Positions 1,505-32,508 of a stretch of DNA of 40,088 bases are shown here, in pieces. The translations under genes were made by a program, and so were the position numbers. Source of the stretch: a virus. A model generated the notes under the pieces. It saw nothing but the letters and a program-made list of their open reading frames with translations, did not search any database and had not been told where the DNA came from. The DNA lies in IMG/VR virus record IMGVR_UViG_3300044621_000561, positions 1-40,088 of that record; one strand, given 5' to 3'. Numbering within the stretch: position 1 is the first letter of the stretch; each line of letters opens with the position of its first letter.

Positions 1505-2227
1505 GTGCTAACAGGAGTATCCCTATTCGCAGGTGTCGGCGGCTTTGACTTGGCTATGGAACGCAACGGAGTGAAGGTCGTAGCCACAGTAGAGATAGAC
1601 AAGAAGTGTAATGAGGTACTGGCTAAGCACTTCCCAACAGCTAAACAATTTACAGATGTTCAACAGGTGACAGGAAAGGATTTATTAGATGCTGGATTTG
1701 ACCCAACAAGAGGAATTATTACAGGAGGATTTCCCTGCCAAGACCTCAGCGTCGCTGGTAAGCGTGCTGGTTTGGCTGGCGAAAGAAGCGGGTTATTCTG
1801 GGAGATTGCTAGACTTGTGGAAGAAACGCAAACAGAGTGGTTCGTCCTCGAAAATGTCCCTGGTTTATTATCCTCTAACGGAGGGAAGGACTTTGGAATC
1901 GTTCTCGGGGAGATGGCCAAACTCGGGTATCGTGTCGGATGGCGTGTCCTTGATGCTCAATACTTCGGAGTACCCCAAAGAAGGCGCCGAGTCTTCATCG
2001 TTGGCAACCGTTCTGGAGACGCAGAGCGTATCGGAAAAGTATTATTTGAGCGCAACAGCGTGCGAAGGAATACTACGCAGAGCAAACCGCAGGGGCAAGA
2101 CTCTGCCACCAGCACTACAAGAAGCTTTGGTCAGACAGGTTTCGCAAAATACTCCGAAGGCGTGACGACCCTTACTGCCACCACATACAAGAGGCCTGAA
2201 GATAATGTTGTGGTTCACCAAAAGTAG
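1505..2227 (+). CDS. DNA (cytosine-5) methyltransferase, N-terminal part (frame 1 of a split gene)
   Basis: The GTG start at 1505 has a GAGGAGGAGG ribosome site. The protein carries the SAM-binding start of the C5-methyltransferase fold (SLFAGVGGFDLA, residues 6-17), the catalytic loop GGFPCQDLS with Cys78, the ENV motif (116-118) and QRRRRVF (158-164). It then enters the variable target-recognition region and stops at 2227. The missing motifs IX and X lie in another frame immediately downstream (2205-2711). It would modify phage DNA against restriction. Either the gene is frameshifted and inactive, or a +1 ribosomal shift or two-subunit assembly restores the enzyme. Confidence 0.9.
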   Translation: MLTGVSLFAGVGGFDLAMERNGVKVVATVEIDKKCNEVLAKHFPTAKQFTDVQQVTGKDLLDAGFDPTRGIITGGFPCQDLSVAGKRAGLAGERSGLFWEIARLVEETQTEWFVLENVPGLLSSNGGKDFGIVLGEMAKLGYRVGWRVLDAQYFGVPQRRRRVFIVGNRSGDAERIGKVLFERNSVRRNTTQSKPQGQDSATSTTRSFGQTGFAKYSEGVTTLTATTYKRPEDNVVVHQK

Positions 2228-2711
2228 AAGGGCGCAAAGTGAAACTGACTATGAGACGTGGGTGGAGGGTGATGTTGTGCCTACTCTAAACTCTTTTGAC
2301 AATGGAGATATTAGGACAACAACCATAATTCTATTCGAGGATAACCGCAGAGATGGGGCTAGGTTCTATGACCAGAGTCCTACATTACAGGGATATATGG
2401 GTACAGGAGGAAACAATATGCCAATGGTTCTAATGCGTATGCGTGAGGGCAAACCAGGTGGAGGTAAAGGACCGCTACTATCGGAGGACAGAAGCTTGAC
2501 TATCGCAACTAACAATGATCAAACACTATTTACTGATAGCGCAGTACGCAGGCTTACGCCTGTTGAGTGTGAGAGACTACAAGGTTTCCCTGATAACTGG
2601 ACCGAAGGTCAGTCAGACTCTACAAGATATAAACAAATGGGCAATGCCGTAGCTGTGCCTGTTGTTGATTGGCTTATCGCTGGTATTGTTGATGAAGCAA
2701 TGATAGACTAA
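2205..2711 (+). CDS. DNA (cytosine-5) methyltransferase, C-terminal part (second frame)
   Basis: This frame continues the methyltransferase after the stop at 2227. Residues 115-129 (RRLTPVECERLQGFP) are motif IX and GNAVAVPVV (146-154) is motif X. Residues 10-110 would be the target-recognition region. The two ORFs overlap by 23 bases. The ATG at 2205 has only a weak GAGG upstream. Separate translation would give a two-chain enzyme split in the same region as the natural heterodimer M.AquI. Otherwise this is the rear half of a frameshifted gene. It is the last gene of the rightward early unit. Confidence 0.82.
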   Translation: MLWFTKSRRAQSETDYETWVEGDVVPTLNSFDNGDIRTTTIILFEDNRRDGARFYDQSPTLQGYMGTGGNNMPMVLMRMREGKPGGGKGPLLSEDRSLTIATNNDQTLFTDSAVRRLTPVECERLQGFPDNWTEGQSDSTRYKQMGNAVAVPVVDWLIAGIVDEAMID

Positions 2712-2800: not shown

Positions 2801-2971
2801 ATGGTCAGTTGAATAGAACCCTGATCCTCTGAAAGAAACAGGAGGAGAGGACCAGAGTCTATCCATTAGGTTGCCGCAGTCAGCACAAGAGGGGGTGCTA
2901 GCTTCGGCGTGGATTGAACGCTCAACGGAAAGGGTCGTTGAACAGTTCTGACATTTGTATTCGTAGATCAT
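2792..2971 (-). CDS. FmdB-like zinc-ribbon protein, 59 aa
   Basis: Short ORF starting MIYEYKCQNC. It has two CxxC knuckles (C7/C10 and C29/C32) forming a zinc ribbon, then the FmdB-family signature FRGSGFYSTD at residues 47-56. FmdB-type proteins are small putative regulators, and their phage versions are uncharacterised. Its ATG overlaps the stop of the upstream gene (ATGA at 2968-2971), and it is the last gene of the leftward replication unit. Confidence 0.82.
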   Translation of the reverse strand: MIYEYKCQNCSTTLSVERSIHAEASTPSCADCGNLMDRLWSSPPVSFRGSGFYSTDHKK

Positions 2972-3345
2972 AAAGCAAAACCATAGTCTAGGTGGAGGAA
3001 GCCTACAAGTTTCATAATCCTGCGGGTATCAGAGAACTCTGTGGTTGCTGGCATACGTCGCTCTGACCACGCTGGTTCAGGCACACGCGATAAGTCAAAG
3101 GCGTAGATACCCTGCGGAGTGGAGTTGATGTAGTAAGGAGTGCGAGTACCCGCTTGGTTGATAAGCCTGCGATACTTCATCTCTTCAATCAGTAGGTCAG
3201 GGTAGTGCGTATGCCTACACTTCAACTCTATGTAGAGGTTCTTCTCATTGGTGGTACAGTCGAAAGAATCGTAGGCCCCTTCACTCTTTTCTAAGTCGGG
3301 GAAGTGACTAGCCTTGAGATAATCGAAGAGTTCCTGTTCTCTCAT
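2968..3345 (-). CDS. PD-(D/E)XK nuclease-like protein, 125 aa
   Basis: Residues 26-44 read YDSFDCTTNEKNLYIELKC, with an Asp29 followed by a beta-strand Glu40-x-Lys42 that looks like the catalytic core of PD-(D/E)XK nucleases. The rest is not diagnostic. The protein is about the length of a minimal nuclease domain. It is coupled to the sigma-like gene upstream (start and stop share position 3345). A nuclease or Vsr/endonuclease VII-like role is inferred only from that motif. Confidence 0.55.
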   Translation of the reverse strand: MREQELFDYLKASHFPDLEKSEGAYDSFDCTTNEKNLYIELKCRHTHYPDLLIEEMKYRRLINQAGTRTPYYINSTPQGIYAFDLSRVPEPAWSERRMPATTEFSDTRRIMKLVGFLHLDYGFAL

Positions 3346-4192: not shown

Positions 4193-4598
4193 TAGGTAAC
4201 TCAGGCCACTTGTTCTCAAGGACTAGGATTGCAATAGCAGAATAGTTCAGTAAATCTACAAAGGAATCTCTCAAGGACTCGTTGCTTGGTGCAACTCGTG
4301 AATCAACGAGATGATTGATCCTGGCAATTTTATCGTGCATTCGCACCCGTAATCCGTTGAGTGCTCCACCTGGACTGTGAGCGATATTCTTCGGCCCGTA
4401 ATCTTTGTGTTTACGGATGAGGAGATTGCCTGCCCCGTCGAGTACTCGCCAGACATCTGCGATGAAGTCATCATCTATTTTCGCACGGGCATCGGTTGGC
4501 AGGTTATCGTACCAGCTTTGTAATCTATCGAAACTATTATCATCCCCATATCCATCAATAATCTGGCTGCCTCGTTCAGGTCTTTCTTTGTCACTCAC
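4185..4598 (-). CDS. Nucleotide modification-associated domain 1 (DUF1599-like) protein, 137 aa
   Basis: Residues 60-100 (IRKHKDYGPKNI, then GGALNGLRVRMHDKIARI) and 108-135 (SLRDSFVDLLNYSAIAIL, then NKWPEL) match the Nmad1/DUF1599 pattern, an all-helical domain related to MazG-like folds and proposed to act on modified nucleotides. The GTG start at 4598 has an AGGAGGAG site and overlaps the Toprim gene end. It would act on phage nucleotide pools or DNA modification. The biochemical activity of the family is not established. Confidence 0.75.
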   Translation of the reverse strand: MSDKERPERGSQIIDGYGDDNSFDRLQSWYDNLPTDARAKIDDDFIADVWRVLDGAGNLLIRKHKDYGPKNIAHSPGGALNGLRVRMHDKIARINHLVDSRVAPSNESLRDSFVDLLNYSAIAILVLENKWPELPND

Positions 4599-5239
4599 TT
4601 CACTCCTCCTACTAGGTGGTTTATCGCGTCAGGCCCTTCTGCCAGATACAGTTCATTGATATCCATACCTGGTGGTAATTGTACTATTTGTCCATTTGTT
4701 AGTTCGCCCACGACACGCTTGGCAAACTCAGCTCCAGGATTGGAGCCATCTTCTTTCACATCATTATCTCCGATGACATAGACAGTATCAAAGCCAGTAA
4801 ATAATCGTGCAAAGTGTGGCTTCCACGCAGCCACCCCTGGCACACCCACTGCTGGAATATCACATAGTCCAGATAAGACAACTGCATCTAATTCACCTTC
4901 ACAGATGACGATGCTTGGCGCATCAACTGTCACATCAAAAACATTATAGAGATGAGCCTTCTGTCCCAGCGGGGATCCATACTTAGGCTTACCATCATCT
5001 AATCTTCTAAACTTGAAACCTACACACAAACCTAACACCGTGATGTAAGGTATGGATAGCCAACCCTCATACATCTCGTGTCCGTTGTGAGGTTCTACAA
5101 TAGTTCCTAGCGAGAACTGCTCGGCTACATCCCTAGATATCCCACGTCCTGCGAGGTAACGCTCTGCCTCGTCGCTTAGATTCTCCGCGTACCGCGTTGC
5201 CGCCTCCTGCAAGGATTTCATCTGCTCTTTCGACTGCAT
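4595..5239 (-). CDS. DNA primase, Toprim catalytic part (second frame of a split primase)
   Basis: Residues 13-45 form the helical linker seen after the zinc domain in DnaG-type primases. The Toprim core has the conserved EGELDA (114-119) and the acidic GDND (157-160) that bind catalytic metals. It would synthesise RNA primers at the fork. The zinc-binding half is encoded upstream in a different frame (5133-5510), overlapping by 107 bases. The ATG at 5239 has an AGGG site, so independent translation as a separate chain is feasible. A frameshift fusing both is the alternative. Confidence 0.85.
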   Translation of the reverse strand: MQSKEQMKSLQEAATRYAENLSDEAERYLAGRGISRDVAEQFSLGTIVEPHNGHEMYEGWLSIPYITVLGLCVGFKFRRLDDGKPKYGSPLGQKAHLYNVFDVTVDAPSIVICEGELDAVVLSGLCDIPAVGVPGVAAWKPHFARLFTGFDTVYVIGDNDVKEDGSNPGAEFAKRVVGELTNGQIVQLPPGMDINELYLAEGPDAINHLVGGVK

Positions 5240-5510
5240 CTTTGAACCCTATCCCTTCCTTCTCCATAATAATATCTACTGCTGTGCCACCCTTACCGCA
5301 GGTGTGACAGAAATATAGATTCCCGTAGGTATCTATCACTGCTGACCTGCGACTATCGTCGTGGATGCAGCAGCGAACCGATACGTTACGCCCTTCTTTT
5401 ACTTCTCCTCCATAGAACCTGACGATATCTGCTATGGAGATTGCAGTTGAATCGGTGGTGCCTTTTCGTTTCGTCTTACGAACCACCCTGGTCCAGTCTT
5501 GTGCTGGCAT
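5133..5510 (-). CDS. DNA primase, zinc-binding (CHC2-type) part
   Basis: Residues 24-95 carry the CHC2 zinc finger of phage and bacterial primases: C47-x2-H50 and C68-x2-C71 with YFCHTCGKGG, followed by a helix typical of the domain end. It recognises template during priming. The start at 5510 has AGGAG seven bases upstream. After about residue 100 the sequence becomes Gly/Arg rich and overlaps the Toprim ORF in another frame, so the C-terminal 25 residues may be a frameshift tail rather than a folded region. Confidence 0.82.
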   Translation of the reverse strand: MPAQDWTRVVRKTKRKGTTDSTAISIADIVRFYGGEVKEGRNVSVRCCIHDDSRRSAVIDTYGNLYFCHTCGKGGTAVDIIMEKEGIGFKDAVERADEILAGGGNAVRGESKRRGRALPRRTWDI

Positions 5511-6935: not shown

Positions 6936-7600
6936 TTCATCACCGTCGATAAGAACTTGATAGCATCCTCTTTGAGATCGTGTGTGCAGTATTCCCTGAA
7001 GACTTCAGCATCGTGGTTGCCTACCTCTGATGAGTTGACCTCTTCATACTGTGCATCCACCTTAGACTTACCAGCCATATAGTGCATATGTTCTACGATG
7101 ACGTCGGGATGATACTCAAGACAATCTGTTATCTGTCCAAAGAGTTTCCAAAAGTTATCCATATACAAGTGAATCAATCTGCGTGGAGCAAAGAAGCCTA
7201 AGCTCTTGCTGATATTAGTAGACATCATTACCATCGTCGGTAGATTTGCCCCTTGGAACAAGTCATTGGCGTAAGAAATACCGTAACCACGTTCCTTGAT
7301 TCCTTGATACAACAGGCCATCCCAGTTCTCTGTTCTGACAATATGGTCATCGCCCATAAAACTAATCGTCTCGTACTTATCTTGATACTTCTTGACCAAT
7401 AGGTTCAAGGTTCCATTCATACGCAGTCGTGGGTTGACTTCTCTGATAACACCCTCTATCTCTGGGTAGTTATCTGCATCATCCTCATCTAGCCCGATGA
7501 GTAAATCTGATATCTTGCTGTTCTGCTTTAGCGCATCAAAGGCCAACTGCGCTTTATCTGGTCTGCCTCTAGCTGGGATAATTACTAGGTTGGTATTCAT
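6932..7600 (-). CDS. Glycosyltransferase-like protein (GT-A fold), 222 aa
   Basis: The N-terminus (NLVIIPARGRPDKAQLAFDA) and the acidic loops GLDEDDAD (36-43) and FMGDDHIV (81-88) fit a GT-A Rossmann-like fold, with GDDH as a possible metal-binding DxD variant. It is paired in one operon with the epimerase, four-base overlap. The acceptor could be DNA bases, a virion protein or a host surface glycan. Position among replication genes slightly favours DNA or an intracellular target, but this is inference. Confidence 0.7.
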   Translation of the reverse strand: MNTNLVIIPARGRPDKAQLAFDALKQNSKISDLLIGLDEDDADNYPEIEGVIREVNPRLRMNGTLNLLVKKYQDKYETISFMGDDHIVRTENWDGLLYQGIKERGYGISYANDLFQGANLPTMVMMSTNISKSLGFFAPRRLIHLYMDNFWKLFGQITDCLEYHPDVIVEHMHYMAGKSKVDAQYEEVNSSEVGNHDAEVFREYCTHDLKEDAIKFLSTVMK

Positions 7601-8433
7601 TAGTACCTCACTAACGGGTTGTTACGTCTGACCATTCGGCCTATATCATCACAGTCTTCAATGCGACATACTGCATAGTCTACAAACAGCGATACATATT
7701 CTCCAGCATTGGCATACATTGGACCAAAGCGATTCTTGACTGGAGCAACGCGAAGCGTTCCCTCTGATGGGCTATAACCTAAAGTCAAGATCAGACTAGG
7801 CAGTTGCGAGACCTTCCCGTGAATGGCTCTGCGCTGTGGTGGAGTAGTGGTATCTCCATACTCACCCTGCTCAGATACGTGGTGCAATACCATCACACAG
7901 GCTTCAGTCTTACGGGCCATATCGTGTAGCTCCATCATAATCTGACGAAGGCCTGCCCATTCATTGTCGTGTTCGGCAACCACATTCATCAGGTTGTCTA
8001 CCACTATCAACTCTGGGGTAACTCCATAGAGTTCTACATAGGCTTTTACTTCTAGTTCAATATCATCTAACGATGGTGACGAATCAAAGCACCATTGGAT
8101 ATGTGACATATTGCCAAGGTACTGATCGTAATATCGTGGGTTGTTCTGTAGGTTAGTCTCGACGCTGACCTGTCCGTGACCTGACAGCGCCGAGGCAACC
8201 CTTATCATTACCGTTGCAGTATCTGTATCTGCAGAAAAGAACAGTGTTGGAACTTTAGCCCTGATGGCATAAATCAAAGCAAACATAGATTTACCAGCGT
8301 TAGGTGCAGCGGCAACCATACACACTTGACCGCGCCGAAACTTAATTTGCTTCTGGTTCAAATCTTTCCATACATCAGGTAGTGGTGTCGCCTTTGTGGT
8401 GACACTGCTCCAAGCTCGGGACAGCTTAAGCAC
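7600..8433 (-). CDS. RecA/DnaB-fold replicative helicase-like ATPase, 277 aa
   Basis: Walker A is AAPNAGKSM (residues 42-50, Lys48/Ser49), Walker B is ELIVVDNL (141-148), and a VMVLHHVSE segment (180-188) is the sensor strand typical of the RecA/KaiC/DnaB superfamily. No N-terminal primase-binding domain is present, so it is a core-only helicase. It probably unwinds DNA with the split primase. The GTG start overlaps the end of whiB and has GGAG upstream. Confidence 0.82.
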   Translation of the reverse strand: MLKLSRAWSSVTTKATPLPDVWKDLNQKQIKFRRGQVCMVAAAPNAGKSMFALIYAIRAKVPTLFFSADTDTATVMIRVASALSGHGQVSVETNLQNNPRYYDQYLGNMSHIQWCFDSSPSLDDIELEVKAYVELYGVTPELIVVDNLMNVVAEHDNEWAGLRQIMMELHDMARKTEACVMVLHHVSEQGEYGDTTTPPQRRAIHGKVSQLPSLILTLGYSPSEGTLRVAPVKNRFGPMYANAGEYVSLFVDYAVCRIEDCDDIGRMVRRNNPLVRY

Positions 8434-8689
8434 TATTCTCCTCTCGCAGAATTATATTCTGCTTACGTCTAATAACCTTTCGATCTCTTTCAGTAAGGCC
8501 TCCCCAGATACCAAACTTCTCGTATCTGATTCCCCATTCTGCACATTCAGTTTGGTGGATACACCTACCACATATACTTCTAGCGTAAGTTGTATCGAAG
8601 AATAATCCCTGACCAGGTTCGGGGAACCAGGAATCTCCACTTCCCGTTTGTGCACATAGCGGAGCCTCGTATTGACGCGGCTCACGCAT
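8426..8689 (-). CDS. WhiB-family [4Fe-4S] transcriptional regulator, 87 aa
   Basis: Four cysteines in WhiB spacing (C12, C40, C43, C49) bind the iron-sulfur cluster, followed by the GIWGG turn (60-64) and a basic C-terminal helix (ERDRKVIRRK) for DNA or sigma contact. WhiB proteins bind the host primary sigma factor region 4 and redirect transcription; phage copies such as WhiBTM4 block host WhiB and cause superinfection exclusion. This gene is the best host marker here. Confidence 0.93.
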   Translation of the reverse strand: MREPRQYEAPLCAQTGSGDSWFPEPGQGLFFDTTYARSICGRCIHQTECAEWGIRYEKFGIWGGLTERDRKVIRRKQNIILREENSA

Positions 8690-8693
8690 TTAC

Positions 8694-9047
8694 TCACCTG
8701 ACCCAGATTGTTGGGCACTTCTCAGCGATTGGTGTGCCTTTAGCTGATGCACACATATAGCCCTTCCAAGGACCCTTAGCGCCTACTCCTTCTTGGTATC
8801 GCATTGCACCGTGACGACAGGTGTGAGCGCCTGCTGGCGCTGGTGCTGCTGGTGCAGGATTGTGTACGGCAGCAGCAGGTCTAGCGCCTGAGAAAGATTG
8901 ACTAACACTGCCGATAAGCGGTGCGAAGTCTTGTGCTGCAGTAAGAAGCGCCTCTAATTCTTCCTTATTGGCAGCATATAAATTAACGAGTGTTCCATCA
9001 GGTGCTTTGAAGTTCACCTGCAGTTTTGTGTTTTCTGGTGCAGCCAT
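8694..9047 (-). CDS. Protein with C-terminal zinc-binding motif, 117 aa
   Basis: Residues 5-50 form a small alpha/beta region (VNFKAPDGTLVNLYAAN, then a helix), residues 55-75 an Ala/Pro linker, and the C-terminus has C77-x-H79, C99 and C111 spaced like a zinc ribbon. It lies directly next to the Cas4-like exonuclease, with one base between stop and start, so a partner role in DNA end processing or ssDNA binding is possible. No named family is recognised. Confidence 0.65.
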   Translation of the reverse strand: MAAPENTKLQVNFKAPDGTLVNLYAANKEELEALLTAAQDFAPLIGSVSQSFSGARPAAAVHNPAPAAPAPAGAHTCRHGAMRYQEGVGAKGPWKGYMCASAKGTPIAEKCPTIWVR

Positions 9048-9995
9048 TTACTTATCTCCTGTTTTCTTAATCGAAAGCCTTGCGCTTTCTTTTCCTTGCT
9101 TGGTTGGTACAAAGCCCAGTGCTTTCTCCACTGCATCTTTGTCAACCGTATTACTCTGGACTGTAGTCCATTTGACTTCATATCCAGTTGAAGTAACTCC
9201 AGTAATGCCGAGCAATTTATCGCGTAGCTCGTTCTTCTTTGTCTCTAAATCTTTGATCTGCTGGTCTACCTGTGTGTAGTGCAGCGCATCCAGCGATGCT
9301 TCCTCATTCTCTATCTGAGGTAGCTCGTTTTTGATACGTTCTTTTTTTAGACCAACGCATCCCATCTCACCAGAGGCGTCGTAGTATTTGCAATAAAACT
9401 TACAATAGCTCTCATCCCTTTCAGGATTAGGAACTGCGTCCGATGTTTTTATTGCTTCCAACCAAGCGAGCGCCTCTAGCGCGACGGATTCGTCATAGGG
9501 TTCAGAGTGCACTAGAACATCTCTTTCATCCCCATCACGAGGTATGGCTACTAAGTTCACCGTTTGGACCTTCCCCAAGCCAGACTTAGAAATTAGATAA
9601 CCATAGACTTGTACCTGCCAACGTTGTTGTTGTGACGGGAAGTAACTAAGGTTCTTAGCCTTAGTAGTTTTCCAGTCAACAACATCACCTGTCCCAGGAA
9701 TAAAGCAGTCTACGTGAGCTTTCATCCCGCCGTATTCGACAGTCTGCTCCAATAGAACTTCTTTATTGTCAGCAAGTGCATTCTCTATTGCAGCGTGGAT
9801 AGCAGTACCCATAATCGCTGCGAGCTTTAGCTCGTTGTCATTGGTTTCTGGTTGACCATTCAACCGATACCAAACCTTACGACGGCAACCACCAAGTTCT
9901 GATGGGCCTATCTGTACCTGTGTAGATCTGCCACGTTTATTCTCTTTATCGTGCAGAGCTTTGACTAAAAGTTCTTTTATATCCATCGGTGCCAT
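9048..9995 (-). CDS. Cas4/RecB-type PD-(D/E)XK exonuclease, 315 aa
   Basis: It has the Cas4-like arrangement of one N-terminal cysteine (GGCRR, C37) and three C-terminal ones (C198, C202, C213), which hold a [4Fe-4S] cluster. It also has His67, Asp96, the strand GDVVDWK (Asp107, Lys109) and a QVQVYGYL motif near 127-134 that form the nuclease site. It would process DNA ends during recombination-dependent replication. There is no CRISPR array or other Cas gene nearby. The C-terminal 80 residues are an extra helical extension. The start at 9995 lacks a clear ribosome site; 9986 is an alternative. Confidence 0.83.
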   Translation of the reverse strand: MAPMDIKELLVKALHDKENKRGRSTQVQIGPSELGGCRRKVWYRLNGQPETNDNELKLAAIMGTAIHAAIENALADNKEVLLEQTVEYGGMKAHVDCFIPGTGDVVDWKTTKAKNLSYFPSQQQRWQVQVYGYLISKSGLGKVQTVNLVAIPRDGDERDVLVHSEPYDESVALEALAWLEAIKTSDAVPNPERDESYCKFYCKYYDASGEMGCVGLKKERIKNELPQIENEEASLDALHYTQVDQQIKDLETKKNELRDKLLGITGVTSTGYEVKWTTVQSNTVDKDAVEKALGFVPTKQGKESARLSIKKTGDK

Positions 9996-10159
9996 TTCGT
10001 AAAGGTAACATTAAAAAATAAGAAACTCAACTGTAATACTGAAGCCTCTAGTATGTCAGTCTTCCATTCTTTGAGTTGGTAGAAATCAATACCAACTGCA
10101 AAGTTATTGAGATAATAACGATTCACGTGAATAGTCAGTGAACCAAAGTCTTTCTGCAT
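9977..10159 (-). CDS. Hypothetical protein, 60 aa
   Basis: Starts MQKDFGSLTIHVNRYYLNNF after a very strong AAGGAGGGG site and a TAATG overlap with the Ntn-hydrolase gene, so translation is likely. The segment RYYLNNFAVGIDFY is aromatic and beta-like, and the C-terminal third is hydrophobic. It overlaps the exonuclease start by 19 bases. Function unknown. Confidence 0.65.
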   Translation of the reverse strand: MQKDFGSLTIHVNRYYLNNFAVGIDFYQLKEWKTDILEASVLQLSFLFFNVTFTKWHRWI

Positions 10160-10722
10160 TACCCCTCCTTAGATTGAGTGACCAACTGTATGGGCGGGCA
10201 AGTGTTGACGTCAAGGACCGACGCAATCTCAACAGCTCGTCGGGCGTGTCGCTCTACAGTAGATGGTTTGATAGAACCCAGATGAGAATAAAGATAACCA
10301 AGAGCAAACTGACCACCAGACCCGATGCCATAAATCCCGTAGTCCGACTGGATGAACGAGAGGTCACACGCAATGTGGAACGCATTGCCAGCAAACGAAA
10401 TAATGTAGTCGAAGCCTGAGTCTTTTTCTTTGCCCGCTTCATAAGGGTCGTATCCATTCTCTTTGAAAGCCGCGATGATGGACGGCAGTACTCTCTTTCC
10501 CATCCAGAGCACAGGATCTGCGCCTGTATATTTCGGCGGAGTCCAGTTATAGGCAAGGATATCACCAGGTCGTGAATCACCTGTTATACCCAGCAGGTAC
10601 TTCCCGACGTGAATAATCTTCGGAGTGGAAGTACTAACGGTCCGTAGATTATCTTCGGTTATCTGACTGTCTGCCGCAAGGCAGACTCCTTCATCGGTCT
10701 GTACAGCTACTAATGTAGTCAC
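10159..10722 (-). CDS. HslV/20S-proteasome-like Ntn-hydrolase, 187 aa
   Basis: Starts MTTLVAVQTDEGVCLAADSQ. Removal of Met would expose Thr2 as the N-terminal nucleophile, Asp18 aligns with catalytic Asp17, Lys35 is near Lys33, and YGIGSGGQFALG matches the IGSGG loop of HslV and proteasome beta subunits. HslV is about 175 residues, so the length fits a peptidase without propeptide. No unfoldase gene is present, so it may use a host ATPase (Mpa/ARC, ClpX-like) or act alone. The GTG start has no ribosome site and lies six bases after a TAAAAT box, which indicates a leaderless mRNA. It is the first gene of the leftward replication unit. Confidence 0.83.
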   Translation of the reverse strand: MTTLVAVQTDEGVCLAADSQITEDNLRTVSTSTPKIIHVGKYLLGITGDSRPGDILAYNWTPPKYTGADPVLWMGKRVLPSIIAAFKENGYDPYEAGKEKDSGFDYIISFAGNAFHIACDLSFIQSDYGIYGIGSGGQFALGYLYSHLGSIKPSTVERHARRAVEIASVLDVNTCPPIQLVTQSKEG

Positions 10723-10728
10723 AAAAAA

Positions 10729-10734
10729 ATTTTA
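10729..10734 (-). promoter_or_regulatory. -10 box of a leaderless promoter for the replication unit
   Basis: TAAAAT on the minus strand ends six bases before the GTG at 10722-10720, with only T residues between. This is the spacing expected if transcription starts at the start codon. No Shine-Dalgarno sequence is present. The -35 position (about 10752-10757) shows no consensus and falls within the 10748-10765 palindrome. Confidence 0.6.
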
Positions 10735-10747
10735 CATCACATACGGC

Positions 10748-10765
10748 GTGTCGCACCTGCGACAC
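10748..10765. promoter_or_regulatory. 18-bp perfect palindrome, shared operator candidate
   Basis: GTGTCGCA-CC-TGCGACAC, eight-base arms around a two-base centre. It covers the -35 positions of both the leftward TAAAAT promoter and a possible rightward TACAAT promoter (10779-10784), so one protein could control both directions. A hairpin in RNA is the alternative reading. Confidence 0.6.
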
Positions 10766-10778
10766 TCCCATCGGTTTC

Positions 10779-10784
10779 TACAAT
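10779..10784 (+). promoter_or_regulatory. Possible -10 box for the rightward zinc-ribbon gene
   Basis: TACAAT, five of six matches to the -10 consensus, about 64 bases upstream of the GTG at 10848. No good -35; the palindrome lies at the expected place. Transcripts would start near 10791 and carry the two alternative hairpins of the leader. Confidence 0.4.
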
Positions 10785-10813
10785 ATGAGCCGTAGGCGAA
10801 TTACAGAAACGGC

Positions 10814-10847: not shown

Positions 10848-11078
10848 GTGCGGCTCCGTCTACTCTTCCTGCGGAAAAATAGTCTACCACCAGTACAAGC
10901 TACTGACCTTAGATCCGTTGGTCCGACGCATCAATGCGTCTGCGGTTGTACAGTTTTTAATACTTATGTCCAATTTGAGGACTATGAAATCTGCTGGTAT
11001 GCCCTAGATGTGCAGTGTGCTAGCTGCGGGAACCTACTGAAGGCACCTTGCCCTATAGATAAGCCAGAGTTAACGTAA
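10848..11078 (+). CDS. Zinc-ribbon protein, 76 aa
   Basis: GTG start with GAGGG upstream. Cysteines at 30, 32 and 34 (CVCGC) and at 57 and 60 (CASCG) form a ribbon around the segment YVQFEDYEICWYALDVQ. Similar single-copy genes, often in their own transcription unit, occur in many actinophages (family recollection, not searched). It is the only rightward gene between the two leftward units, which suggests separate regulation. Function unknown. Confidence 0.75.
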   Translation: MRLRLLFLRKNSLPPVQATDLRSVGPTHQCVCGCTVFNTYVQFEDYEICWYALDVQCASCGNLLKAPCPIDKPELT

Positions 11079-11207: not shown

Positions 11208-11245
11208 AAAAAAGAGGCCCCAGTCCCGATTAAGGGACCAGGGCC
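11208..11245 (-). terminator. Rho-independent terminator of the late unit
   Basis: On the minus strand a GC-rich 12-base stem (11234-11245 with 11216-11227, a two-base mismatch pair inside) and a six-base loop are followed by TCTTTTTTG. It stands 24 bases past the stop of the last late gene, the holin-like gene. Confidence 0.85.
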
Positions 11246-14375: not shown

Positions 14376-15275
14376 TTATTTGACGGTTCTATTTATGAAA
14401 TCTAATCCAGCCCAGTTGCCGTAGTCATTAAGACTGCGCTCATCTCCAAGGGCTTCAGGTCCTATGCGCTGTGTAGACAGAATGTCATACACCTCAGCCT
14501 TAGACTCAGCGTCTTTGGTTGAGTATTCATTTGGGTAATCTTTCCAGACGTGGCTACGCATATTCTTCTGCCATACTGCAGTATGGTCATAGTAGAGATG
14601 GTAGATATATTGCTTATCTGGTATGTATAAATCAAAGCCGTGAGTAAATGCTCTGGCTGCAATAAGTATCTCTTCGCCCCAGAACATAATCTTTTGGTTG
14701 ACATCCAACTTAGCAAACTCACCAAGAGTAAAGATGAACCCAGCAGATACTGATGTCTGCTTGACCAAGCCTTCGCTTTGTACTGCAAGTTGACTTGGTA
14801 TCAGGCTTGATGCAAACTGGTCAGGCTTTTCTGAAAATGATATGGATGTTACTGACCTATCCCAGTCAGAGTATTCTTCTAGTCTGTCGTTGTAGATATA
14901 TGACGATGGGTATGCAGTTAGAAGTGGCTTCGCCACCCCTTGATCCTGCAGCTTCTTGATGTTATCAATCAAGGCCTCATCCCAGTCAGGATAGAAGCGA
15001 GTATGTGCATCAACCTGTAGGTAGTAATCCTGCCCTGAGTAATGCCTATTGGCTAGGTGTCTAGCTCTGCCTACTCCAATATCCTTCGGAGCTTGAGACT
15101 CGCTCATCCTAAAGTTGGCAACCTTTGGGATAAGTATTTGGAAGTCTTCTTTATAGACCTGATGGATTCCAAAGCAGATAGTATGGTTACCACTGCTTTT
15201 CTTTACTGCATCATATACAGTCTTTGGTAATTCAAAGTCGTGATATGAAGCTATCTGTACAAATATGGAAGCCAT
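14376..15275 (-). CDS. GlcNAc-type glycosyltransferase (PF11397-like), 299 aa
   Basis: The ATG at 15275 forms TAATG with the previous stop; a GTG six bases upstream is less likely. Residues 87-94 (QVDAHTRF) hold the DxH metal site, and FWGEE (198-202) is the second signature of this GT-A family, whose best-known member glycosylates Skp1. In a tail operon it could glycosylate virion proteins, with the Thr-rich neighbour (15478-15819) an obvious acceptor candidate. Confidence 0.8.
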   Translation of the reverse strand: MASIFVQIASYHDFELPKTVYDAVKKSSGNHTICFGIHQVYKEDFQILIPKVANFRMSESQAPKDIGVGRARHLANRHYSGQDYYLQVDAHTRFYPDWDEALIDNIKKLQDQGVAKPLLTAYPSSYIYNDRLEEYSDWDRSVTSISFSEKPDQFASSLIPSQLAVQSEGLVKQTSVSAGFIFTLGEFAKLDVNQKIMFWGEEILIAARAFTHGFDLYIPDKQYIYHLYYDHTAVWQKNMRSHVWKDYPNEYSTKDAESKAEVYDILSTQRIGPEALGDERSLNDYGNWAGLDFINRTVK

Positions 15276-15469
15276 TACCACTTACCTAACGGACAAGTGG
15301 CTGGCTGTAACTTCGTCTTTGCTATCATAAAACATCCGCACTGTCTACATCTGCGACTTATATGTGTAAGTTCTGGACATTCTTCGCATATAGCGAAGCG
15401 TCTATCTGCCTCTTCTTCTGTAGCCCTAGGCATACCATTAAACATATCCCAAGGTTTTACATCAGACAT
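15275..15469 (-). CDS. Zinc-binding small protein, 64 aa
   Basis: C28/C31 (CEEC) and C41/C44/C46 with C59 (CRQCGC, then TCP) form a two-knuckle zinc fold; the C-terminus ends PLGKW. This layout recurs in small phage tail-operon proteins. It is coupled to the glycosyltransferase downstream. Function unknown; possibly a chaperone or enzyme partner. Confidence 0.7.
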   Translation of the reverse strand: MSDVKPWDMFNGMPRATEEEADRRFAICEECPELTHISRRCRQCGCFMIAKTKLQPATCPLGKW

Positions 15470-15477
15470 CTAGACTC

Positions 15478-15819
15478 CTAGCAAGGTGGTGGTGGATAGG
15501 CTGGGTATCCACTAGTTGAACAGCTTGTGCTGCTGTTACAGCTTGAGCTACCACTCAAGTCTACAGTAGATGTAAACCTACCTTGTACATACTCTTCATT
15601 TGATAGATATGTGGTAGAACAATACCAAGTCACAGGTGGAGCCGTAGTAGTTGTGGTTGTGGTGGTTGTAGTAGTTGGAGCCGCTGTCGTAGTAGTGGTT
15701 GTGGTAGGCGCGGCGGTGGTAGTAGTCGTTGTTGTCGTAGTGGTTGTAGTGGTAGTTGTCGTTGTTGTAGTAGGCGACGTAACCCTAGCCTTGAGAACAA
15801 ACGCTAACAGATTTATCAT
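15478..15819 (-). CDS. Poly-threonine, Cys-rich protein, 113 aa
   Basis: Short hydrophobic N-terminus (MINLLAFVLKARVTSP), then threonine runs of 19, 7 and 11 separated by AAP, then a C-terminal domain with five cysteines, many serines and an end YPPPPC. Composition is mucin-like. It overlaps the fibre gene stop (TAATGA). It may be a flexible stalk or decoration protein carrying O-linked sugars added by the neighbouring glycosyltransferases; that is inference. Confidence 0.65.
   Translation of the reverse strand: MINLLAFVLKARVTSPTTTTTTTTTTTTTTTTTTTAAPTTTTTTTAAPTTTTTTTTTTTAPPVTWYCSTTYLSNEEYVQGRFTSTVDLSGSSSCNSSTSCSTSGYPAYPPPPC
15643..15774. repeat. Low-complexity Thr-codon repeat tract
   Basis: About 130 bases of degenerate ACN codons on the minus strand (GTN-like on plus). 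Mixed third bases (ACA, ACT, ACC, ACG) show that the protein tract, not a pure DNA microsatellite, is conserved. Length variation by slippage is likely. Confidence 0.75.
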
Positions 15820-27265: not shown

Positions 27266-30200
27266 CTAGTCATCCAGTAATCTGCCGAAGAGCACGTCGT
27301 ATGCTGCTTGGGTATTTTCGTTGTATTTTGCTAATTCCTTGATTGACATAATGGTTCCATCTTTAATGGATTGCATTAGGTCTCTATTTGTTCCAGTCAG
27401 AGCAAAGATTTCTTTCTGGGTCTTATAGTCTGAATATGCCTTGACCATCTGACGCAATACATCTTGAGTGTCTTTGCGGATAGATCCATATGTTGGGTCA
27501 TCTAAGAACTTCTCTAAGTCATCAAGTGCCTGCAGGGTCTTAATGCGTTTCTCAGCCCCTTGGTTAAGTTCTTCTTGAACCAGTGGACGACCTGCAAAGA
27601 AGCGGGACTTCCAGTCATTAAACTGCTGACGAGCAAGGCTGCGTGCAAAGTCTGATGCTGAAAACTTCAAAGTATTTTCATATTCATCGCGCTTCTGGTA
27701 ATAAATCTGCAAATCTGATGAGGTTTGTACCTCACGTAGGTATTCCTCAACGCGCTTATTGGTACGAAGACCCATTGTTGCCATTGTGCGGTAAGCATCA
27801 AATGAGAAGGCACCCTTATGCGGAATCAGGAATGCTGCAGCCTGTGGATAGTCTTTGAACATTGTCTCATTATCTGAGACGAATTTGCCAGACTCTTCGG
27901 CATAACCAAAGAAGGCTACAGTCTTACGTTCAGATTCTGTAACGGTATAAGGCACAGCGTTAGGAAATAGCTCCACCCAACGTTTCATCGCTGCGTCATA
28001 GTCTCCATCATACTGCTCACGAAGAGCGTTGAAAGACTGCTTGAAGTTAGCCTGACCAGCATCTCTGATCCACTCTTGCATATCAGACTTGAGCTGAATT
28101 GAAGGTGAGGCTGGTGCAAAGAATCCAAATACGAAGCGGGTAGCCAGAATTGACAAAGTTGTATTGCGAGCCCTCTCGCGGTAAGCCTCTAGTTCACCAG
28201 GCGAGGGTGGCAAAAGATTACCATCTGTATCATAACGCTTTGGAATACCGTGACCTGCTGCCTCAAGGTAAGTGACAGCCTTACGATATGCAGAAGCATA
28301 CTGACCATTGCGCTCATCTTGGCTCATAGCACTCAGCGCTCTGTTGACGTGAGCAGGCATTAGGCGTGATACCAAGCCTTGGTCTACTGAGTATTCGCCA
28401 AGTGTATAGCGAGCGATTGTATCGCCCATACCTGGCTCAAAGATGTTGGTTAGGTTTTGTATCGCAGTCATCGGGATAGCCGCTGCTGGACCTGAGAATG
28501 TTGGTAGCCACGACTCTGTATTCAGTGATGGCGACAACATCTTAACTGATGCACCAAACTGTACAGGGAATGGAACCTTAAAGTCTTGCGGAATGCCCAG
28601 TGCCGTTAGTGCGCCCTGAACCGCACGATAGCCTGGAGCAAAGTGTGGATACACAAAGTACTTCTCGCCACGATCATCTTCCTGAATCCAACCAGAGTGT
28701 GCTATGCCATCAAATGTGAGGGCTAACTTCTGGATAGCCTCTGGGTTATATCGAACGATACGAGCAAGACGGCGATAGAAATCCTCTTGAGCGCGATAGA
28801 AACGAGCAAAGTTACGGGCAGTAAAGGATGCTTGGCTTCGGATAAGCGGGTTATCAACATATGGAAGTATCTGAGATACTGCACGCTCTTCAACCAACTT
28901 AGCGTATTCACGTTTTGCATTGACAAGAGCTGCTGCTTTTGATTCAGCATCATCAATGCCCTTAGTAAAGTTATCATAGAAGGCTTGCTCAAAGCCTGAC
29001 TTCTTCATCTGCTTACGAATCTTGGTTACTTCGTACAGCGCCATAGGCTGGCGTGATAGACGAGCAGTTGACAGACCAAGCCACACCCAGCCCTTTTGCA
29101 TCAAAGGTGATGTGTAGTTATTGACATCAGCAACAGGAACTAACTCTGGCCCAACTACCGATGCTGGTATAAGGTCAATATCTTCTGGTAGGTCATCAAG
29201 AGTCAACTTGCCTGTAACGGTGTAACGATTTAACTCTGGGTCAAAACTACGAACCTTATTGAGTAGTTCTGTATTGATATCACCGTTGCGACCAGTGACG
29301 ATTGCTCTAGCACGGTTAAGAACAATCTGAGCGTATTCATCAATGGATAAATTCTTACCAGATGATAGACGTGCGTCATCTAAAACTTTTTTATTCTTAG
29401 GGTCTGATAGCCACGCCTTCATAGCATTGACTGCTTCTACAGGCTTGTCAGCATTAGCAAGGGCAATAGAACCTAGTTCGTCATTACCATAGAATGAGAT
29501 ACGTAGCGCCCAAGCAATCATTGATGCTTCGTTGTTTGGCGTTAAGCCAATCTCGGTAAAGCCTCTTGCGCTTGCTGCTTGAGCATACTTGGTCTTTAGA
29601 CCACCAAGGTCTAGGCGTAGTTCTGCTTGCTTGACTCCAAGAGTCTTGGCTAGGTCAAAGGCTGAATCAATATAGTTAGATCCTGCAGCAAAGTTAAAGC
29701 CGCCCTCGGATACGATAGATAGTAAGTTATCTATATCGCCGTACAGTACTTGTTCTGTCAGTAATTCTAAACCTTCGCTGTCTAGTTTAGACAAGCCAGT
29801 CATCTTTGCAAAGCGCTGTACGCGACCTGCTGTCAAAGCCTCAGCCATAATCTTACGAACTTCTTGTTCTACGCCACCTTCAATCTCTTTGCGTAGGCGA
29901 CGTACTCCAGCCTGTGCTCCCTTGACTTTCTTAGCATCAGTGCTGTTCTTTATAATATCGTTGTACTCTGCAATCTTGGCTTTCTTGGCAGAAAGAATAC
30001 CGTCAACCTCTTTGATGCGAGTGGCGTATCCTGCAGATTCGTCCCTATTAACAAAACGCATAATCAAACCAAGAGGTTCTGAGGCAAACTTTTCGCCAGC
30101 AGTTAGTCCTGGCGTTAAGCGCATTGCTGTGTTAAGACGGGTTGATAGATAGCGACCTTTAGCAATACCCCAAGGGCTGTTGCCAATAGCGATATTTACC

Positions 30201-32110
30201 ATCAAGTCTTCAATAGAATTACGCAATGCGTAACGATATCCAGCAAGAGTTAAGAATGACCAAGCATTTGTAACGCTTTCCATATACTTGCTATTAGAAA
30301 CGCCAATAACACGTTGGATAAGACTTGTTCTAGAAGACATACGATCTATGTCTACAAGGCTAGGAGCTGTGACAAAGTTATTCATTTCGCTAGGCAAGAG
30401 ACCGAAGTCAATGTAATCGTCAGTACCAGCAATGCTATATCTAACCTGACCTTTGCCAGTTAAGCGACGGACAACCTTCTGTCCTTCTACTGTCATATTC
30501 ATACCGCGAACATCTGCAATAGTGGCATACAGTCCGTAGTAAAACTCTTTGCGCTTACCTGCTTCTTCAAGTCCAGAGAAAGTCTCAGCCATTAGGCGAG
30601 CCTGACGGGTCGGAACTATAAGTGTTGCTAGTTGATAAATCTTATCTGGTGCATCTGCTGCGGTGACATCAAATGCGTTATCCTTGAATAGTGGTATGCG
30701 GGTAAACTTACGCTTGGCATTATCAATGCGACGGGCAATGTCGTTACTAGAAAAGCGTAAGCGATCCTTGCCCTTAACCTGTAGACCCTTAGCTGCCTCA
30801 ATCAATTTCTTAGGTTCTTCAGTTATAGCCTTATAGATGCCATCTTGAGTTTCAGGTGCACCAAAGAAGTCATCTACTAACTGTGGTCCGATGTCATCTA
30901 GGTTAAATACTCGATTAGCGCCAGTAAGAACTGCGACTCTAGCCTTACGACGATTGTCTAGACGAGGCATAAGGATACGACGGCGAGCAGTTCCTGCATT
31001 CATCATAGTGAATGCGTCATCGCTGTTATAGAAAAAAGCCTTAGCGGAGTTAATATCTTCAATCTCAGCCTTGTTAAATAGATTAACAACTGCTGGACCG
31101 AACTCTGGAGCTAGACGTTCTGCCTGTCTGCGTGCTTTAGCGGCTGCGGTTTTGTCGCCACGCTTGGTAGCATCACGTAAATCTTTTAGATTTTTACCAT
31201 AGTTATCCCAGAACGCTACAGTCTCAGGCTTGGCAAAGTATGTTGCCGCAGTGTCTCCACCTTTACGGGCAGATACCACGATTGCTTCATAAGCATACTT
31301 ATTTACATCATATAAACGCTTTGCTTTACCCAATAAAAGTAATGGATCTGCAACAATACGATAGGCAGCATCTACTGCGCCTGATGTAATCTTGTAGAAA
31401 AAGCCATTCTTGTAGAAATCGCCAGGTATAAAGGCATCTAATACGTTAGCAACTGCGCGACCTGGTGAATACTGTGCAGCATTGACCGCAGAGATAGCAT
31501 CATCTAGTAAGTCTCTGTCTGCTTCCAGTTTCTTAGCGTCAGCGTTTGGTAGGTTCTTAATAGAACGATCTGAAATCTGTAGCCAATACTTCTCTTCATC
31601 AGTTGCAGTAGCCATAAGCTGTGCAACTTCTTGAGCATTACGAGCACCGCGAATCTTTTTAGCAATACCTACAAGATTCTTGCCATACTTTGACTCAGCG
31701 TCAGCAAGGCGTTCCTCGTTAAATACCTTTTGACCGTCTTTTTCTGCACGGTCCCACGCATCAGATAGGTTACGACCTTCTTCTGCAGCAATGATTCCAG
31801 TACGAGCAACGCGAGTAGCAAGGTCTGATAGCGCACCAGCGGCTTCAAATACCTTACCGCCTGTGTAATGCCACGCAGTACCGAGCCAGCCACGATTAGG
31901 CTTCTCTTCTGGAGACTGTTCACCGAACTTATCCTTAAGATCTTGTTGTTCATTAGGTGTAAGTTTGGTGTTATAGGCATCGTTAGCCACAGTTGCTGGG
32001 AGATTAAGAAGCGTCTTATGGGTTTCTAGCGCCTTATTAAGGCGTTCAATCTGCTTCTTTTGCTTATCGGATAACCCAGCAGCAGAGGCTGCTGCATTGA
32101 GGTCAGCCAT
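27266..32110 (-). CDS. Very large internal virion (ejection) protein, 1614 aa
   Basis: The ATG at 32110 is chosen: it overlaps the upstream stop (TGATG) and GAGGTGA lies just upstream; an in-frame TTG one codon earlier is unlikely. The product is long and mostly helical, with no transmembrane anchor or enzyme motif that I can identify. It takes up about 12 percent of the genome. In a short-tailed phage a protein of this size fits one injected with the DNA to form a trans-envelope channel, as T7 gp16 does. A tape-measure role is unlikely because no long-tail genes are visible. Confidence 0.65.
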   Translation of the reverse strand: MADLNAAASAAGLSDKQKKQIERLNKALETHKTLLNLPATVANDAYNTKLTPNEQQDLKDKFGEQSPEEKPNRGWLGTAWHYTGGKVFEAAGALSDLATRVARTGIIAAEEGRNLSDAWDRAEKDGQKVFNEERLADAESKYGKNLVGIAKKIRGARNAQEVAQLMATATDEEKYWLQISDRSIKNLPNADAKKLEADRDLLDDAISAVNAAQYSPGRAVANVLDAFIPGDFYKNGFFYKITSGAVDAAYRIVADPLLLLGKAKRLYDVNKYAYEAIVVSARKGGDTAATYFAKPETVAFWDNYGKNLKDLRDATKRGDKTAAAKARRQAERLAPEFGPAVVNLFNKAEIEDINSAKAFFYNSDDAFTMMNAGTARRRILMPRLDNRRKARVAVLTGANRVFNLDDIGPQLVDDFFGAPETQDGIYKAITEEPKKLIEAAKGLQVKGKDRLRFSSNDIARRIDNAKRKFTRIPLFKDNAFDVTAADAPDKIYQLATLIVPTRQARLMAETFSGLEEAGKRKEFYYGLYATIADVRGMNMTVEGQKVVRRLTGKGQVRYSIAGTDDYIDFGLLPSEMNNFVTAPSLVDIDRMSSRTSLIQRVIGVSNSKYMESVTNAWSFLTLAGYRYALRNSIEDLMVNIAIGNSPWGIAKGRYLSTRLNTAMRLTPGLTAGEKFASEPLGLIMRFVNRDESAGYATRIKEVDGILSAKKAKIAEYNDIIKNSTDAKKVKGAQAGVRRLRKEIEGGVEQEVRKIMAEALTAGRVQRFAKMTGLSKLDSEGLELLTEQVLYGDIDNLLSIVSEGGFNFAAGSNYIDSAFDLAKTLGVKQAELRLDLGGLKTKYAQAASARGFTEIGLTPNNEASMIAWALRISFYGNDELGSIALANADKPVEAVNAMKAWLSDPKNKKVLDDARLSSGKNLSIDEYAQIVLNRARAIVTGRNGDINTELLNKVRSFDPELNRYTVTGKLTLDDLPEDIDLIPASVVGPELVPVADVNNYTSPLMQKGWVWLGLSTARLSRQPMALYEVTKIRKQMKKSGFEQAFYDNFTKGIDDAESKAAALVNAKREYAKLVEERAVSQILPYVDNPLIRSQASFTARNFARFYRAQEDFYRRLARIVRYNPEAIQKLALTFDGIAHSGWIQEDDRGEKYFVYPHFAPGYRAVQGALTALGIPQDFKVPFPVQFGASVKMLSPSLNTESWLPTFSGPAAAIPMTAIQNLTNIFEPGMGDTIARYTLGEYSVDQGLVSRLMPAHVNRALSAMSQDERNGQYASAYRKAVTYLEAAGHGIPKRYDTDGNLLPPSPGELEAYRERARNTTLSILATRFVFGFFAPASPSIQLKSDMQEWIRDAGQANFKQSFNALREQYDGDYDAAMKRWVELFPNAVPYTVTESERKTVAFFGYAEESGKFVSDNETMFKDYPQAAAFLIPHKGAFSFDAYRTMATMGLRTNKRVEEYLREVQTSSDLQIYYQKRDEYENTLKFSASDFARSLARQQFNDWKSRFFAGRPLVQEELNQGAEKRIKTLQALDDLEKFLDDPTYGSIRKDTQDVLRQMVKAYSDYKTQKEIFALTGTNRDLMQSIKDGTIMSIKELAKYNENTQAAYDVLFGRLLDD

Positions 32111-32508
32111 CAATCACCTCTCGCTAGAGCTTCCTGATACAGGATTGTTATTTCACCTGTATTGTCAAAAGGAAGCATTTGTGCTAAAGCATCTGAAGTT
32201 TTTGCTTGTTGGCGTACAGCATTCATACCAAGGACCTCTGGTCCTGGTCCTTCACCGCGTGCAATACCAGCGGTAATAGGTTCATCAGGACGTTCTGTTG
32301 GGGCATACAGTGATGTAATCTGCGAAGGAGCCATACCCATTTCGCTACGAGTCATACCCTTGACATCTGCTGTCTTTGCTAGTGGAGCACCTGCCTTAAT
32401 AGCGGCGGTCTCAACACCTTCTCCATAGGATGATGAAGGAATATCGTCTCTGACAGAGAACTTACCTGGACCTGATACTCCAGCCAAAGGGTTCACTGGT
32501 TCAGCCAT
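32110..32508 (-). CDS. Hypothetical virion-unit protein, 132 aa
   Basis: Starts MAEPVNPLAGVSGPGKFSVR after a strong GGAGGATAACA site. Pro/Gly/Ala rich and likely disordered for the first 90 residues, with a helix at the end (NAVRQQAKTSDALAQML). It overlaps neighbours on both sides. May link portal to ejection proteins. Confidence 0.62.
   Translation of the reverse strand: MAEPVNPLAGVSGPGKFSVRDDIPSSSYGEGVETAAIKAGAPLAKTADVKGMTRSEMGMAPSQITSLYAPTERPDEPITAGIARGEGPGPEVLGMNAVRQQAKTSDALAQMLPFDNTGEITILYQEALARGD

Follow-up and report, generated by a model that had tools for sequence, protein, structure and literature searches.

The window, by which we mean the whole stretch of 40,088 nucleotides that was analysed, is a virus contig, possibly incomplete. 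It carries on its minus strand a gene for a proteasome-like threonine peptidase, and the surrounding genes and sequence elements are listed in Table 1. The open reading frame is real and its match to the proteasome family is far beyond chance; an ORF check of the plus strand of 10159-10722 revealed no open frame. The initial annotation had described this gene as the first of the replication unit, and this was confirmed: a terminator-like hairpin and about 0.5 kb set the peptidase apart from the upstream lysis-side genes, and the genes of the replication unit come after it. Throughout the window lineage, the peptidase comes first and is followed by the 60-aa protein, the Cas4/RecB nuclease, the gp49-like protein, WhiB and DnaB, in this order. 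Further along the same strand, the primase is split in two overlapping genes (4595-5510), with the zinc-ribbon part in 5133-5510 and the primase-core part in 4595-5239.

Table 1. Genes and sequence elements at the peptidase locus (window coordinates).
Feature	Coordinates	Strand	Remarks
Proteasome-like (Ntn-hydrolase) threonine peptidase gene	10722..10159	minus	stop codon included; 187 aa; GTG start read as Met
60-aa protein gene	9977..10159	minus	no annotation; ATG overlaps peptidase stop by 1 nt (TAATG); family conserved
Cas4/RecB-type exonuclease gene	9048..9995	minus	next annotated gene of the operon
Mycobacteriophage L5 gp49-like protein gene	8694..9047	minus
WhiB-family transcription factor gene	8426..8689	minus	actinobacterial host marker
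DnaB-like replicative helicase gene	7600..8433	minus
76-aa protein gene	10848..11078	plus	divergent; four conserved Cys (CVCGC...CASCG), zinc-ribbon-like
-10-like hexamer TAAAAT	10729..10734	minus	6 nt before GTG; leaderless-type promoter
Perfect palindrome GTGTCGC-N4-GCGACAC, then GCCG	10748..10765		at about -35; conserved across the lineage
GGCTCATATTGTA box	10779..10791	minus	upstream of the palindrome
Terminator-like hairpin	11216..11245	minus	between lysis-side genes and replication operon

Three features of this locus were absent from the initial annotation: the 60-aa gene, the divergent 76-aa gene and a conserved palindromic promoter element. In most loci the start codon of the 60-aa gene overlaps the peptidase stop codon by a few nucleotides, and an extra gene lies between the two in a few loci; because of this overlap, the two proteins are probably translationally coupled. 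The 60-aa family has the consensus ...NWxLGxDYY...ARIxQINLLFFNITITRW..., and neither Pfam nor, at a significant level, PHROG gave a match for the protein. Its structure was predicted, with low confidence (pLDDT 70), to be all-beta, and all PDB matches of this model were non-significant. A role as cofactor or substrate of the peptidase would be plausible for this protein.

The 76-aa gene starts about 125 bp upstream of the peptidase and is conserved at this place under purifying selection, with a dN/dS of about 0.17; a Pfam search with its product gave no match. It is a candidate regulator, and action on the palindrome would be a natural guess. Another gene was found upstream of the peptidase in at least 11 relatives, about 350 bp away and in the opposite orientation. 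Its homologue in the window (65-69% identical) encodes a 125-aa protein at the end of the operon (2968-3345, minus strand), and we consider this gene mobile or rearranged.

Promoter region of the peptidase gene

Judged from the upstream sequences, the pattern in front of the peptidase is that of leaderless transcription. Of 50 distinct relatives, 48 have a TANNNT hexamer at a distance of 5-9 nt from the start codon, compared with a mean of 8 and a maximum of 16 in shuffled sequences, and in 30 of those 50 upstream sequences the distance is exactly 6 nt. A Shine-Dalgarno-like word was found in just 10 of the 50.

The palindrome was initially taken for a 5' hairpin of the RNA. Because the leaderless -10 hexamer just precedes the start codon, it is better read as a DNA site at about -35, probably one recognised by a regulator or a sigma factor. 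Searches of the window against Rfam and for tRNAs were empty. The only exact copy of the palindrome in the window is the one upstream of the peptidase, and degenerate matches were no more frequent than expected by chance; it is therefore not a repeated operator. The spacing between the CTCATATTGTA box and the ACACGCC end of the palindrome is nearly fixed (27 nt in most sequences), and the box is conserved across the lineage.

Fold, catalytic residues and family of the peptidase

The proteasome-type Ntn fold that had been proposed from the sequence was borne out by family profiles and by structure prediction. Pfam PF00227 (Proteasome) matched the protein with 32 bits, compared with a curated cut-off of 22.4 (E 1.2e-7), and PHROG 1040 ('peptidase HslV family') matched residues 1-185 (E 3.7e-23). 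An AlphaFold2 model made from 29 relatives (pLDDT 87.5, pTM 0.85) has the four-layer Ntn fold, with helices at residues 51-58 and 70-88, the latter H2-like. With Foldseek, 1,058 PDB matches reached E<=0.001, the first of them to the betaproteobacterial proteasome homologue BPH and to HslV: the top match was BPH 5ovs_K (E 9e-11, TM 0.76), followed by HslV (TM 0.67-0.71) and then by proteasome beta subunits. Matches to BPH, HslV and the 20S beta subunit all had a probability of 1.00, at an overall identity to the solved members of just 14-24% or so. A profile built from the 29 relatives also ranked the two BPH sequences in the PDB first; the alignments span their full length and match up Thr1, Asp17 and the catalytic Lys.

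The marked residues of the 187-aa protein are Thr2, Asp18, Lys35, Gly48, the IGSGG loop at 133-137 and Asp171. Thr2, Asp18, Lys35 and the loop (I133-G-S-G-G137) occupy the positions given by the initial annotation, with the Thr nucleophile directly after the Met. Among 29 diverse aligned members of the lineage, T2, D18, K35, G48, G134, G137 and D171 are invariant, and T2, D18, K35 and G48 are likewise kept in 54 distinct homologues of the sister group, the E7-type phages. These four residues are the equivalents of Thr1 (or Ser1), Asp17, Lys33 and the oxyanion Gly47 of the proteasome-like family. Neither a non-Ntn fold nor homologues devoid of the Thr/Asp/Lys set, which would both have contradicted the assignment, were found. 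The median dN/dS of the peptidase is about 0.12 (728 pairs of relatives), a sign of strong purifying selection. The protein has no propeptide and begins with MTT; methionine aminopeptidase removes a Met that precedes Thr, which would expose the Thr. Taken at the level of sequence, these features suggest that the protein is probably an active threonine peptidase.

The initial annotation had called the protein HslV/proteasome-like; the proteasome-type family stood, and membership in HslV proper did not. The protein resembles HslV (HslVU, ClpQ) in its MTT start, its IGSGG motif and its fold (TM about 0.7), whereas it reached only 28.3 bits compared with 157.75 for the HslV model TIGR03692, and 29.9 bits compared with 137 for NF003964. 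The closest fold is that of BPH, and the pore loop is also BPH-like: residues 89-105 or so (NGYDPYEAGKEKDSGFD, net acidic) form a long segment, the worst-modelled region of the protein (pLDDT about 62), which aligns with the acidic pore loop of BPH and which E. coli HslV lacks. The loop is very short in HslV, where it is gated by HslU, and long in BPH, for which no unfoldase is known (PMC8665760, PMC5777263). No HslU-type gene, such as accompanies HslV, was found in the phage record, which may be incomplete. In agreement with the initial annotation, a search of this 40-kb record for AAA and AAA_2 unfoldases detected none.

Among solved structures BPH (PDB 5ovs, 5ovt, 5ovu; PMC5777263) is thus closest in fold, and it also gives the best profile match over the full length. 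The two proteins share the Thr/Asp/Lys set, the lack of a propeptide and the long pore loop; like BPH, the peptidase has no dedicated unfoldase within the phage record. They differ in that identity is only about 20-24%, and in that BPH is encoded by a chromosomal bacterial gene tied to stress responses, whereas the window peptidase is viral and lies in a replication operon. In a phylogenetic tree with midpoint root and long branches, BPH fell outside all phage proteins. Standard protease assays detected no activity of BPH itself (PMC5777263).

Proteasome homologues of phages and bacteria, named AAH and PPH, were published in 2021 (Fuchs, Alva and Lupas, PMC8665760). Like them, the window peptidase is a group-I proteasome-like protein of a tailed phage, with no AAA+ partner in the phage record. 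PPH proteins are about 140 aa long and devoid of helix H2, whereas the window peptidase has 187 aa and the H2-like helix 70-88; PPH was therefore set aside. The proteins of AAS21, J2-1, Vibrio and Aeromonas, which were taken as PPH-like for the tree, formed a clade of their own, and those of the window, DSL-LC01 and E7 were grouped at only 86/51. AAH would be the likelier home of the window peptidase. The 2021 survey found no Actinobacteria-specific phage encoding AAH, and no genomic context that would suggest a function (PMC8665760). In a jumbo phage, stand-alone HslV-like genes that lack an HslU companion were noted (PMC7823757), and one gene of a marine phage is annotated as BPH (PMC8953757).

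Distribution and genomic positions

Relatives of the peptidase were confirmed on at least 596 virus contigs, and those of 71-99% identity are abundant. No relative was found by profile-pattern scans with two profiles in 84,980 prokaryote genomes, a method that reaches close relatives only. Relatives from named phages have at most 34% identity; they belong to actinophage DSL-LC01 (where the gene is annotated HslV), to Planktophila phages E7 and F5 and to proteobacterial phages with PPH-like proteins. The homologues of LanE43AprE7/F5 (OX376640/OX376641; PMC10202952) and of Actinomycetia phage DSL-LC01 (OQ999401) have the same catalytic set and 28-34% identity to the window peptidase.

The terminase of the window phage best matches those of the Planktophila phages (45%), then those of Streptomyces phages. 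These matches, together with the WhiB gene and the L5 gp49-like gene, indicate that the host is an actinobacterium. The strain used to isolate E7 and F5 is a cultured 'Ca. Planktophila', of the 'Ca. Nanopelagicales' (PMC10202952); since the window phage is akin to them, this order is the likeliest host order.

The peptidase was found in 52 of 52 further loci anchored on the nuclease and with enough upstream sequence, and in 65 of 65 anchored on the 60-aa gene. All 19 long records (window lineage, E7-type and DSL-LC01 group) have exactly one proteasome-like gene. On these counts, the reading as patchy accessory cargo was rejected, with the reservation that the lineages counted are related and their loci do not represent independent events. 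The peptidase is thus a core gene, which occupies alternative genomic places. Among E7-type phages, each of the 79 loci with upstream sequence places the homologue immediately behind the portal gene. The window phage and E7 are collinear for terminase, portal (48% identity) and the downstream genes; behind the portal, the window phage has two other short ORFs where E7 has the homologue. The DSL-LC01 homologue adjoins a WhiB gene, and further phage homologues adjoin nucleotide-metabolism or PhoH genes.

The region behind the portal also encodes, in the window, a giant protein of 1615 aa (27266-32113, minus strand, TTG start), for which no confident Pfam match was obtained and which has partial homology to the protein at the same position in phage E7.

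Possible role of the peptidase

We favour, with a probability of roughly 0.6, the reading that the enzyme is a phage-borne, BPH-like threonine peptidase that acts independently of an unfoldase on an obligatory substrate at the onset of replication. Translation would probably start on the very first base of the mRNA, which would be leaderless, and a host aminopeptidase would remove the initiator Met and expose the Thr nucleophile; by analogy with the chemistry of the family, Asp17 and Lys34 (mature numbering) would complete the triad. The subunits would probably close into a ring whose pore loop is long and net acidic, and we infer that the ring would work without a dedicated AAA+ unfoldase, as proposed for BPH, and would cleave loosely folded or loop-recognised substrates. 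As the peptidase is a core gene and no cargo, it most likely acts, at replication onset, on a phage protein or else on a host protein whose removal every phage of the lineage requires. However, the E7-type homologue sits in the head module, which is at odds with a replication-specific role.

Because the homologue of the sister group is adjacent to the portal, head maturation is the main rival. As a head-assembly (prohead) protease, the enzyme would serve virion maturation by trimming scaffold, portal-associated or ejected proteins, and its gene would have moved to the replication operon. Prohead proteases are usually encoded around this place behind the portal, the window phage has terminase and portal in common with E7 but other ORFs at that spot, and no recognised prohead protease was found among the scanned head-module proteins of the window. 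The universality of the gene in the lineage also fits virion maturation, by the argument of PMC7824862. However, the window-lineage gene belongs to the replication operon and has a promoter of its own, homologues in other phages have the nucleotide-metabolism or PhoH neighbours mentioned above, and the major capsid protein, from a reading of the sequence, seems to have a separate scaffold-like gene and no N-terminal delta domain. The scaffold-like gene and the operon position speak against head maturation, not decisively, and we consider this explanation rather unlikely.

A wider hypothesis, which we hold only tentatively and regard as unlikely in its entirety, would be that of an obligatory, virus-only protease of freshwater actinophages that needs no unfoldase and has the 60-aa protein as its dedicated activator or adaptor. 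Its gene would have shifted between the portal and the replication operon, and one self-compartmentalising protease would process phage proteins in both lineages. If true, this would be, to our knowledge, the first case of a virus shown to depend on an enzyme of the proteasome family.

The peptidase could also join a host unfoldase (Mpa/ARC, ClpX-type or HslU) and redirect proteolysis to host or defence proteins. Mpa/ARC is common in Actinobacteria, and the proteasome beta-like fold combined with the lack of a detected phage-encoded unfoldase would suit such a partnership. It is nevertheless improbable, as the long pore loop typifies the unfoldase-independent BPH, unlike HslV (PMC8665760, PMC5777263), and Fuchs et al. 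did not find an AAA+ partner that co-occurs with the new homologues (PMC8665760). A specific protein ligase or acyl-transfer enzyme of the connectase type, and no protease, would be compatible with the intact Ntn active site and with the proposal that proteasome-like homologues may be non-proteases (PMC8665760); connectase, however, has no helices H1-H2 and has an S3/S4 insertion, whereas the peptidase model lacks such an insertion and does have helices 51-58 and 70-88, which makes this activity very improbable. The inactive decoy or inhibitor subunit that the initial annotation had offered as an alternative, which would poison a host proteasome or HslV-type ring and with which a small stand-alone gene would agree, is scarcely credible, because the catalytic residues, needless for a decoy, are invariant across the lineage and purifying selection is strong.

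The unfoldase-independent peptidase acting on an obligatory substrate is thus the reading that we retain. Phage copies of the proteasome family were known already, and the window peptidase adds a member to them; in the open-licence literature searched, we found no phage proteasome homologue with a known substrate or function. To this are added a virus-only clade in freshwater actinophages, the standing of its gene as a core gene that takes alternative positions, a small gene coupled to it, and a leaderless promoter element that is conserved; no description of any of these was found in the same literature. The strict operon position, the coupled partner gene and the defined promoter, together with relatives on a cultured host (E7/F5), make the role of a phage proteasome-type protease directly testable.

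Two other peculiarities of the window were observed. A protein rich in long threonine runs (TTTT...APTTTTT) is encoded at 15478-15819 (minus strand), near a GlcNAc-type glycosyltransferase gene (14376-15281). A short ORF at 2205-2711 (plus strand) matches DNA methyltransferase families in their C-terminal part alone and is possibly a truncated or split gene.
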